This document shows, one piece after another, positions 15,889 through 19,392 of a stretch of 64,000 bases of DNA (positions are counted from its first letter, which is position 1; every line of letters starts with the position of its first letter). The notes beneath the pieces were generated by a model that made no database searches, was not told the origin of the DNA, and saw nothing but the letters and a program-made list of their open reading frames with translations. This DNA comes from Lacunisphaera limnophila (GTDB lineage: Bacteria > Verrucomicrobiota > Verrucomicrobiia > Opitutales > Opitutaceae), in the NCBI RefSeq assembly GCF_001746835.1, contig NZ_CP016094.1:310001-374000 (forward strand), given 5' to 3'. The position numbers and the translations under genes were made by a program.

Positions 15889-16551
15889 ATGCAACCCGCC
15901 CGCATCCTGATCGTCGAAGACGACCCGATCGCCAGCACCCTGCTGGCCGGCTGGGCCCGCCATCAGGGCGCGGCGGTCACCACCGTGGGCAGCACCGCCG
16001 AGGCCGACACCGCCCTCGACACCTGGGACTTCGACCTGATTATCAGCGATGTTCACCTGCCCGGCAACGACGGCTTGGTCTGGATCGAGGTCGTGCTGGC
16101 CCGCCCGCAGCCCCCGCCCGTCATCCTGATCACCGGCTCGCCGGAACTCACCACCACCGTCCGCGCCGCCAACCTGCCCATCGCCGGCTACCTCCTGAAG
16201 CCACCCGATTTTGCGTCCCTCTCCGCCCTCGCCCAACGCCTGGTGGCCGAACACCGCCACCGGCGCGAATTGCGCGAGCTCTCCCGTGAGACGGCCTGGC
16301 TGATCACCCAGCTGGCCGGGGAGACCGACCCGCTCCGCGACAAACTCCTCCAGCTTTCGCGCTGCCTCATGGCCGAGGCCGACCAGAATCCCCGCCTGGC
16401 CCCGCAGCCCGTCCACGACCAGCCCTGGCGCGCCATGATCGCGGATACCATCGCCACCTTGGAGAAGACCAAGCATAGCTTCCGCTCCAAGGAACTCGGC
16501 CAGCTCCGCCAACGCCTCGCCCTCGCCCTCGGCGGCCGCGCCGCCGCCTGA
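15889..16551 (+). CDS. response regulator without DNA-binding domain
   Basis: A 220-residue protein. REC domain residues 1-120 carry Asp54 in LIISDVHLPGNDG and Lys in YLLKPPD. The C-terminal 100 residues are helical (RHRRELRELSRETAWLITQL ..., EKTKHSFRSKELGQLRQRL) with no recognisable output domain. The end may resemble a Fis-like or kinase-docking helix pair, but this is weak. It follows the soluble kinase after 57 bp and precedes a terminator, making it the last gene of a three-gene phosphorelay unit. A phosphate sink or shuttle role is plausible. Confidence 0.85.
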   Translation: MQPARILIVEDDPIASTLLAGWARHQGAAVTTVGSTAEADTALDTWDFDLIISDVHLPGNDGLVWIEVVLARPQPPPVILITGSPELTTTVRAANLPIAGYLLKPPDFASLSALAQRLVAEHRHRRELRELSRETAWLITQLAGETDPLRDKLLQLSRCLMAEADQNPRLAPQPVHDQPWRAMIADTIATLEKTKHSFRSKELGQLRQRLALALGGRAAA

Positions 16552-16594: not shown

Positions 16595-16699
16595 CCCCAT
16601 TAGCCGCCCCCGACCCACCCGATTAGCCCGCCGACTGCCTGCGCGACTGACCGCCCCACCGCTCAAGTCCGGCTCCGGGGAGCCGATATGCGGATACAA

Positions 16700-16770
16700 C
16701 GTTGCGGTGCGCCCAAGGGCGCGACCGCCTGATTCGGACCGGTCCCGACCGGGAAGGATGAGGAGCGACG
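16700..16770 (+). ncRNA. structured leader RNA candidate, copy 1
   Basis: A 71-nt element whose sequence and fold match the one at 17227. The outer pairing is CGTTG / CGACG. Hairpin P2 (GGTG-CGCCC / GGGCG-C-G-ACC) has a bulged G. Hairpin P3 is CCGGT / ACCGG. Conserved single-stranded words are TCGGACCG and GGAAGG. It lies 36 bp before a small ORF. It does not fit the c-di-GMP, SAM, cobalamin or TPP riboswitches as remembered; an Rfam search would settle this. Confidence 0.55.
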
Positions 16771-16806
16771 CCCCCAACCCGCCATTCCGGCCGGTCGCTC
16801 CCTCCT

Positions 16807-17022
16807 ATGTCCTCCTCCGAAATTCCCGCCTCGCCCAGCCAACCCAACGCCCCGACGCCGCCGGCCGCCCCGACGCTGTCCGCGGCCGACGCCGAGACCC
16901 TCCTCAACCGTCCGCGCGCCCTCGTCACCGTCCTCTGCCCCACCGGCTTCACGCCCTACGCCACCGAGGGCGTCGACCTCAGCCAACCCCTCTTCGCCCG
17001 CGTCACCTACCGGCCGGAGTAA
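16807..17022 (+). CDS. small hypothetical protein (71 aa)
   Basis: Not recognised. The ORF begins with ATG and encodes a Pro/Ala/Ser-rich N-terminus (SEIPASPSQPNAPTPPAAP) followed by a more protein-like segment (SAADAETLLNRPRALVTVLCPTGFTPYATEG). It sits between two copies of a leader-like RNA element and just downstream of copy 1, which supports translation. No ribosome binding site is obvious. It may be a genuine small gene, a leader peptide, or the remnant of a larger gene, since A/T-richer non-coding DNA follows to 17226. Confidence 0.4.
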   Translation: MSSSEIPASPSQPNAPTPPAAPTLSAADAETLLNRPRALVTVLCPTGFTPYATEGVDLSQPLFARVTYRPE

Positions 17023-17120
17023 TAACTCCGGCGCATCAACTTCGACGGCGGTACCCGGCTCGCGCAGCTCATCACCCTGACCGTCGGGGCGCAATCCGCC
17101 CTCCCCGCTCCACTTTCCCC

Positions 17121-17143
17121 TTTCAAATCTGAATTCTGATTTT
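17121..17143. repeat. A/T-rich palindromic repeat
   Basis: TTTCAAATCTGAATTCTGA belongs to the family of A/T-rich imperfect palindromes also found at 19411, 22675, 37239, 44928, 45867 and 56163. Confidence 0.55.
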
Positions 17144-17226
17144 GCCGCGAACAGCACGGAAAGTCGTCCAACGGCCCCCTTTTGTTTTCTCTCAATTCCA
17201 CCCCCTTTGTGCCGATGTGACCCGAA

Positions 17227-17298
17227 CGTTGTGGTGTGCCCTCCCGGGCCCGACCCCTTCACTCGGACCGTTCCGCACGGTAAGGGTGGGAATCGACG
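17227..17298 (+). ncRNA. structured leader RNA candidate, copy 2, upstream of the chemoreceptor gene
   Basis: A 72-nt element aligned end to end with 16700-16770. It has the same outer pairing CGTTG / CGACG. P2 has the same bulged G (GGTG..GCCC / GGGC..C-G-ACC), P3 is CCGT / ACGG, and the conserved words CTCGGACCG and AAGG.TG.G recur. It ends 45 bp before the chemoreceptor ATG. Sequence differences in P2 and P3 mostly keep pairing. Confidence 0.6.
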
Positions 17299-17343
17299 CC
17301 TGATCCGGCCCCCGGCCTTTTCCACGCCAGCTCATCACCCGCC

Positions 17344-19392
17344 ATGTCCCGTCGCTCGTCCCTCACGTTCAAGCACAAGCTCGTCCTCTGCCTCCTCGGC
17401 ATCGGGGTGCTGCCGCTCGTTGCCATCTCCCTGCTCGCCTTGCGGTCGATCGATCAGCTCCGGGACACCGTTGAGCAGACCCACGAGGGCGCCAGCCGCG
17501 CCGCCATGGATGTCATCGACCGCAACCTCTTCGAGCGCTACGGCGACGTCCAGGCCTTCGCGCTCAACTCCGCCGTCCTCGACCGCCCGGCCTGGTATGC
17601 CCGCGACCCCGCGCAAAACAGCATCGCGCAGGCCATGGACAACTACGTCCGCCTCTACGGACTCTACGTCCTGACCATCGCCGTCGACCTCGACGGCCGC
17701 GTCATCGCCGTCAACAGCCGCAACGCCGCCGGCAACGTCCTCGACACGGGCTCGCTCTACGACCGCAACTTCAAGGACGAATCCTGGTTCCGCGCCACGC
17801 TGGCCGACGAATTCCTCAAAAGCCCCACCCTCGACGGCACCCACGTCACCGCCCCCTGGTTCGACACCGACAGCGCCCGCCTCACCGGCGGCGACGGCCT
17901 CGTCCTCGCCTTCTCCGCCCCGATCCGCGACGCCACCGGCCGGGTCGTCGGCGTCTGGCACAACCGCGCCGACTTCGGCTTCATCGAGGAGATCGCCCGC
18001 TCCACCCAGGTGACGCTCGCCACGCGCGGCTTTCGCTCCGCCGATATCCGGGTCATCGACGGCGAGGGTCGCATCCTCGTGGAATACGACCCGCTGGGCT
18101 CCGGCAATCCCGCCCTCACCCGTGACCGCGCGGTCGTCCTCCAGTCCAATTACGTCACCGCTGGCGCCGCTCCCGCGCTGCTCGCGGTCCGCGGGCAGTC
18201 CGGCGTCAGCCATTTCATCCCTCCGGGCGAGGACACGGATCATGTCTGCGGCTACTCCGCCTCGCTGGGCGCACTGGGTTTCCCCGGTTTGAAATGGTCC
18301 GTCCTCACCGCCGTCCGCACCGAGGAGGCCGATGTTATCGTTTACGACACGCGCCGCCAGCTCCTGCTGGTCAGCGGCGCCAGCCTCTTGCTGCTCGCCG
18401 GCGCCGCCTTCTGGCTCGCCCGCTCGCTCAGCCGCCCGATCCTTACCGCGCTGGAAAAGATCCGCCTCGGCGGCGAGGAGATCGACACCCACACCCAGCA
18501 GGTCTCCGTTTCCGCCCATCAACTCGCGCAGGACTCCAGCAGCTCCGCCGCCTCCCTCGAGGAAACCGCCGCCTCCCTCGAGGAGATGTCCGGCATGACC
18601 CAGCGCAATGCCGGCTCCGCCGGGCAGGCGCAGACCGCCGCCGCCCGCGCCCGCGCGGCCGCCGACACCGGTGCCGGCCAGATGCAGTCCATGCAGGGCG
18701 CCATGCAGGGCATCAAGGCCGCCTCCGACGACATCACCAAGATCCTGAAGACGATCGACGAGATCGCCTTCCAGACCAACATCCTCGCCCTCAACGCCGC
18801 CGTCGAGGCCGCCCGCGCCGGCGAACACGGCGCCGGCTTTGCCGTCGTCGCCGAGGAGGTCCGCGCCCTCGCCCAACGGTCTGCCTCCGCCGCCAAGGAG
18901 ACCGCGACCAAGATCGCGGACTCCGTCGCCCGGAGCCAGCAGGGCGTCGCGATCAGCACCGCGGTTGCCGGCAGCTTCACCCAGATCCAACAGCAGGTCC
19001 TCGAACTCGACCGGCTGGTCGCGGAAATTTCCACGTCCTCCCGGGAGCAAGACTCCGGCATCACCGAGATCAACCGCGCCGTCGCCCAGATGGATCGCAT
19101 CACCCAAGGCAACGCCGCCACCGCCGAGGAAAACGCCTCCGCCTCCGAGGAACTCAGCTCCCTCTCCACCTCCCTCCGCACCACCGTCGGCGAACTCTTC
19201 GTCCTCATCGGCGGCCGCGGCACCCACGACGCCGCCGGCACCAGCGGCCAGCCCCACCCCAACCAGCGCCGCCAGAGCGATCAAAAGACCGTCGTCAGCG
19301 CCCCGCGCGCCGGCTCCGCCGCCAACCGCCGCCCCGCCGCCGTGACGCCAAAGGCCAAAGCCAACGCCGACGCCTTCTTCGAAAACACCTGA
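17344..19392 (+). CDS. methyl-accepting chemotaxis protein with dCache-like sensor domain
   Basis: A 682-residue inner-membrane chemoreceptor. TM1 covers about 14-34. A large periplasmic dCache-like domain follows (about 40-335: [40 protein letters not shown]). TM2 is at about 340-362 ([20 protein letters not shown]). The cytoplasmic coiled coil has the conserved hairpin tip [21 protein letters not shown] near residues 470-500, which binds CheA/CheW. Glu/Gln pairs for methylation flank the tip. A HAMP domain is weak or absent, and there is no CheR-binding pentapeptide at the C-terminus. The ligand is unknown; dCache domains bind small metabolites. No other che genes are in the window. Confidence 0.94.

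Follow-up and report, generated by a model that had tools for sequence, protein, structure and literature searches.

A structured leader RNA family found 5' of chemoreceptor genes in Opitutaceae

Two leader elements at a chemoreceptor locus

The window analysed here is a stretch of 64,000 nucleotides (positions 310001–374000) of the 4.2-Mb genome of Lacunisphaera limnophila. It carries two related elements that lie on either side of an ORF for a protein of 71 amino acids and 5' of a gene encoding a chemoreceptor, i.e. a methyl-accepting chemotaxis protein (MCP) (Table 1). A sequence-only reading of the window had proposed elements of 71 nt (16700–16770) and 72 nt (17227–17298) which align end to end and are followed by start codons after 36 nt (ATG 16807) and 45 nt (ATG 17344); placement, alignment and distances were all borne out. 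Both copies contain the features that it had listed, namely the CGTTG/CGACG base, a bulged G, a second hairpin and common unpaired words. It had also stated that changes in the stems mostly preserve pairing; a few stem pairs are, however, broken in copy 2. Judged by folding energy alone, copy 1 is unusual (z −3.2) and copy 2 is not (z +0.3). The real evidence for an RNA comes from the family-wide covariation described below and not from the two window copies alone.

The window contains two occurrences of the pattern CGGACCG-N(4-10)-CGGNAAGG, compared with 0.03 expected by chance, and none of 100 shuffles reached two. A longer pattern from the 5' part of the element was found just twice in the whole genome of 4.2 Mb, and its reversed control was not found. 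For each of two patterns that represent separate parts of the element, the window copies were the only occurrences in the genome.

Table 1 Features of the locus in the window of Lacunisphaera limnophila
Feature	Position	Strand	Evidence
Single-domain response regulator, upstream of element 1	15889..16551	+	Pfam
Sigma-28-like promoter of element 1: −35 CTCAAGTC, 12-nt spacer, −10 GCCGATAT	16662..16689	+	13/16 consensus positions; ends 8 nt 5' of the element
Leader RNA element 1 (helices P1 to P3; bulged G in P2, internal loop in P3)	16698..16772	+	88.4 bits with covariance model R2, alignment, covariation
P4-like hairpin 3' of element 1	16777..16795	+	Window fold −7.7 kcal/mol
ORF for a small protein of 71 amino acids	16807..17022	+	Relatives of about 72 amino acids directly 3' of MCP genes in G100, G101 and G103
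Sigma-28-like promoter of element 2, weaker: −35 CTCAATTC, 12-nt spacer, −10 GCCGATGT	17191..17218	+	11/16 consensus positions; ends 6 nt 5' of the element
Leader RNA element 2	17225..17300	+	70.5 bits with covariance model R2, alignment, covariation
Short P4-like hairpin 3' of element 2 (GGCC/GGCC), followed by TTTT	17307..17317	+	Folding
Methyl-accepting chemotaxis protein, 682 amino acids, presumed target	17344..19392	+	PF00015, E 3.9e-41

The small ORF between the elements matched 8 of the 252 genomes of the family at E ≤0.001, its own genome included. The relatives encoded directly 3' of MCP genes were found in the three related genomes G100 (E 1.2e-10), G101 (E 3.2e-9) and G103 (E 5.5e-9), and the window ORF is predicted to encode a conserved chemotaxis-linked protein. 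Members of this small-protein family (window 16807–17022; L226, L227, L228) carry the motif CPxGFxPxxxEGxxLxxPLFARVxY near their end; the two of them scanned against Pfam, the window ORF and its relative L228, gave no match. For the window MCP, an orthologue was sought within the genus, and matches outside its own locus span the signalling half only.

Membership, fold and range of the family

Three covariance models were used, built from the two window copies (R1), from 12 members (R2) and from 25 members (R3). Against 57 relatives, R1 recovered a strong third member with 65 bits, and among the 252 genomes of the window's bacterial family it matched 9 at E ≤0.1, some of them weakly. R2 matched 18 of the 252 genomes at E ≤0.05, of which 17 were accepted. 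The window copies are members of a real structured-RNA family, which comprises 26 elements in 17 genomes, all within the window's own bacterial family; 25 elements derive from the R2 search and one further copy, in G101, was shown by R3. Excluded from the counts were the match in G078 (23.5 bits), a third match in G098 (23.3 bits), L007, L008 and L009 (21.8–26.5 bits) as well as L016 and L017 (26.2 and 24.6 bits), while L109 (31 bits) was retained as a decayed member. L210 is included in the 26 elements and stands outside the alignments, the promoter count and the P4 count; L109 stands outside the P4 count and L107, at a contig end, outside the promoter count. A weak second element-like match of 27 bits (L103:8991-9057), which is likewise uncounted, lies further along the same MCP locus.

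The elements fold into a junction of three helices; P2 carries a bulged G, and the CGG/AAG internal loop of P3 is near-invariant. In the wider family P1 reads GCGUUGC/GCGACGC, and P3 consists of an outer helix, the internal loop and an inner helix, so that compared with the structure first described from the two copies P3 is longer and contains an internal loop. The conserved fold is backed by compensatory changes. Since all members come from one bacterial family, the pair counts are inflated by relatedness. In the model-fitted alignment (A7, 25 of the 26 members) 93.3% of 667 cells are paired and 17 of 27 pairs have changed on both sides; the corresponding values are 93.5% and 15 of 27 for 21 of the 26 members aligned with MAFFT without regard to structure (A8). 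The covariation score of A7 is 0.458, compared with 0.249 for shuffles, none of 500 of which reached it, and 0.058–0.123 for slid structures; that of A8 is 0.389, compared with 0.217 for shuffles and at most 0.104 for slid structures. Folding of single sequences is less telling: the mean z is −2.6, but window copy 2 and L107 have positive values.

These alignments also bear on the idea that the copies, two of which stand close together in the window, are a DNA-level or mobile repeat and not an RNA. We find this very hard to believe. Pairs at the RNA level are kept by compensatory changes, and at one pair of the outer P3 helix C-A stands in place of U-G in at least four rows by our own reading, although it was scored as unpaired. 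The flanking sequence of the elements differs, all 26 are sense-oriented, and 25 precede a gene or gene remnant, the other one (L102) being located near a contig end. As the genome holds only two copies, the mobile repeat was rejected.

Samples of the order (372 genomes) and of the phylum (387 genomes) gave matches in the window's own family only, in 7 and 5 genomes, respectively. With 12 candidates scored per listed genome, these searches may have overlooked divergent relatives. When 84,980 species were scanned for an exact pattern, 54 loci were obtained; the 7 that score above 50 bits all belong to Opitutus or Opitutia MAGs. These 7 correspond to genomes G097–G100 and G171 and were not recounted, and the other 47 were excluded because they scored 27.3 bits or less or were not among the matches listed. 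Within the limited sensitivity of the order and phylum samples and of the pattern scan, no accepted element was found outside the window's family. Nor was there an accepted element in the 20 further genomes of the genus Lacunisphaera, where the one weak match of 26.5 bits was excluded.

The sequence-only reading had recognised no known riboswitch class, and Rfam assigns no family to the elements. The whole window had 0 matches to Rfam 15 at the gathering cut-off, eight loci searched at E ≤5 gave three weak matches, none on an element, and copy 1 and L094 searched alone at E ≤10 gave four matches far below the gathering scores. This loosest setting covered copy 1 and L094, whereas copy 2 was covered by the searches of the window and of the eight loci. 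Among the papers listed, no title or abstract opening describes the element, and a mention in the 224-RNA study (NAR 2017) is excluded via Rfam only. The main texts of PMC8632094 and PMC11109978 contain no word beginning with Opitut- or Verrucomicrob-, no chemotaxis and no flagell- word. Our results thus add a family of structured RNAs for which there is no matching model in Rfam 15 and define its promoter type, gene set and phylogenetic range, which makes a search for its ligand directly testable.

Promoter-like sequences and presumed target genes

The 24 upstream stretches were scored against the sigma-28 consensus CTAAAGTT-N12-GCCGATAA, with 16 positions. At least 12 positions agreed in 16 of the 24 stretches compared with 33 of 9760 control positions; at least 10 agreed in all 24, but also at 1011 of the 9760 control positions. 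The best −10 match ends 5–10 nt 5' of the element in 18 stretches and 13–24 nt 5' of it in the other six. With a sigma-28-like promoter just upstream, the element would correspond to roughly the first 75 nt of the transcript, and it probably lies at the very 5' end of an mRNA of the flagellar regulon, the start of which we infer from the promoter-like sequence. The sequence upstream of the elements also fits the FliA (sigma-28) consensus TTAAG-N16-CCGATA reported for Bdellovibrio in PMC3627812, while in comparison with the promoters of that regulon an extra RNA domain is added here.

FliA (TIGR02479 above cut-off) is encoded in 137 of the 252 family genomes, namely in 16 of the 17 with an element and in 121 of the 235 others (one-sided Fisher p 3.3e-4, uncorrected for ancestry). 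The only genome with an element and without FliA above cut-off is G096, which is 74% complete and bears the decayed copy. This degenerate element (L109:4386-4461) is located 5' of an apparently broken MCP gene and may show decay after loss of motility.

Pfam searches and inspection of the reading frames placed 19 of the 26 elements 5' of MCP genes. In six of the 19 loci (L090_83715, L092, L096, L103, L104, L108) an ORF of 25–90 amino acids starting with ATG lies between the element and the MCP start. Three further elements precede genes of outer-membrane-type proteins, one of them with an Alginate_exp match and two without Pfam match that we read as barrels. The remaining ones are window copy 1 with its 71-amino acid ORF, L105, which precedes a response regulator, L109, which precedes the apparent MCP remnant, and L102. 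The elements are thus placed and oriented alike within the presumed 5' UTRs of genes with related functions. Further genomic copies, mostly 5' of chemotaxis genes and with covariation, were what the sequence-only reading had named as support, and they were found. That reading stands as far as it described a conserved structured leader RNA without Rfam match; it had missed the sigma-28-like promoters, the hairpin P4 and the family of the small ORF.

A putative outer-membrane barrel family with the motif DSNVYLQD (L090:7077-8480, L093:4208-5605, L103:6748-8301) is either preceded by an element or encoded directly 3' of an element-led MCP, and the two members scanned had no Pfam match.

The element is a minority feature of MCP genes. 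In six genomes, ten elements precede MCP genes, compared with 87 match rows for MCPsignal. In the window's genome one of ten MCP genes is preceded by an element; at the nine others there is none, and a simple pattern finds no sigma-28-like site near their starts. The related genomes also contain sigma-28-like promoters without an element 5' of CheX/CheY, FliS and response-regulator genes and of some MCP genes, as named from our reading of the encoded N-termini and not from a family scan. In 20 such other stretches with sigma-28-like promoters no model match exceeded 17.7 bits. Since chemotaxis and flagellar genes of the same genomes, some MCPs included, can have a sigma-28-like promoter and lack the element, the element is optional. 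Two apparent MCP genes with sigma-28-like promoters (L195, L207) have a different hairpin-rich leader, which the model does not detect.

Downstream region and possible mode of action

The element is followed by a hairpin, P4, whose sequence is unrelated between members. Its z value is below −1 in 20 of 24 windows (mean −1.86). Such values are found in 2 of 24 windows that cover the following 30 nt and in 2 of 23 upstream windows, and the 30 nt beyond P4 are unstructured (mean z 0.14). The first ATG that is at least 10 nt downstream lies 34–47 nt 3' of the element in 17 of 25 cases. A run of four or more T within 45 nt of the element occurs in three of 24 leaders; its absence from the other 21 led us to reject a terminator in P4. 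The duplex energy between the 3' strand of the element and the start region averages −17.7 for own spacers and −16.9 for permuted ones. Due to the p value of 0.056 for this complementarity, a start-site switch stays hypothetical and sequestration of the start site by the 3' strand is not claimed.

We consider it likely that the elements form a lineage-restricted family of 5' leader RNAs which are transcribed from sigma-28 promoters and control translation or stability in cis by means of a bound ligand or protein. According to this proposal, the sigma-28 (FliA) promoter would give rise to an mRNA beginning with a folded domain of about 75 nt, followed by the variable P4 hairpin, a stretch of little structure and the start codon. 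The leader would act in cis, and some genes of the flagellar regulon would be its targets, namely chemoreceptors and their partners. The bulged G of P2, the CGG/AAG loop of P3 and the purine-rich 3' strand are candidates for a binding or tertiary-contact site, and since the conserved unpaired residues resemble such a site, we propose that the leader, once it has bound a small molecule or a protein, gates either the translation or the stability of its mRNA. What the data show is the fold (through covariation), the searched range, the promoter-like sequence with its position, P4 and the gene context; cis action, binding and direction of control are what we infer.

The role of the element might also be passive. 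A folded 5' end might protect the mRNA and leave an unstructured tail open to ribosomes, which would fit both the expected position of the element at the 5' end of the transcript and a P4 that is kept as a hairpin but not as a sequence, followed by unstructured RNA. Such a stabiliser or translation enhancer would, however, on its own explain neither the near-invariant unpaired residues nor the choice of a subset of genes, and we regard it as improbable.

Within the proposed control by a bound ligand or protein, the partner might be a CsrA-like regulator or a nearby response regulator that binds the domain and controls translation. The 3' strand is purine-rich, GGA words occur in some members, and response regulators are encoded upstream of several elements: besides the one in the window, they were found in L097 and L098 (Pfam) and in L092 (by resemblance). 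The window's response regulator, however, has a receiver domain only (Pfam, E ≤1), and GGA words and hairpin loops vary, unlike in ANTAR and CsrA targets. Because of this variability an ANTAR or CsrA target was set aside, and a protein-binding leader appears unlikely.

A small-molecule riboswitch proper is a possibility that we hold tentatively. Its junction and P3 loop would bind a motility-related metabolite or a second messenger such as c-di-GMP, and P1 would be in competition with P4 or the start region. The compact three-helix fold with conserved unpaired residues is in accordance with it. The c-di-GMP-I and -II riboswitches (GEMM; RF01051, RF01786) are compact structured leaders 5' of motility, chemotaxis and surface genes, and the targets found here are motility and surface genes of the kind they generally control. 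For Bdellovibrio, PMC3627812 reports massive expression of a c-di-GMP-riboswitch RNA during the attack phase, where a FliA-type consensus is present at 92 of 140 promoters; its authors propose a reservoir of c-di-GMP for this RNA and not control in cis. Against a riboswitch stand the lack of an Rfam riboswitch match on copy 1 and L094 even at E ≤10, the non-significant pairing with the start region and the scarcity of T-runs, with no intrinsic terminator evident. The Rfam models of the c-di-GMP riboswitches had no match on the elements, and the conserved residues differ.

The flg-Rhizobiales (RF01736) and Termite-flg (RF01729) motifs are located 5' of flagellar genes. They belong to other lineages, and the window elements have no Rfam match. 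Both motifs are named in the candidate-RNA table of PMC2864571. The element may work like such candidate cis-regulatory leader RNAs of motility genes, and it falls outside every family tested.

As a rather doubtful extension, we speculate that the leader represents a new riboswitch class that couples a signal from the cell to the late flagellar programme governed by sigma-28. A sensor domain at the head of the mRNA would then check a second messenger or CO2/bicarbonate before the receptor or carbonic-anhydrase fusion is translated. If the proposal is true, control by the flagellar sigma factor would be followed by an RNA checkpoint before the receptor is made. The unusual carbonic-anhydrase chemoreceptor fusions among the targets hint at sensing of CO2/bicarbonate: six of the 19 MCPs contain an N-terminal Pro_CA carbonic anhydrase domain, and these fusions are possible receptors for CO2 or bicarbonate. 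The fusions of Pro_CA and MCPsignal are encoded at L090:2171-4633, L094:169-2652, L098:1928-4441, L099:1973-4483, L104:263-2770 and L107:1236-3620.
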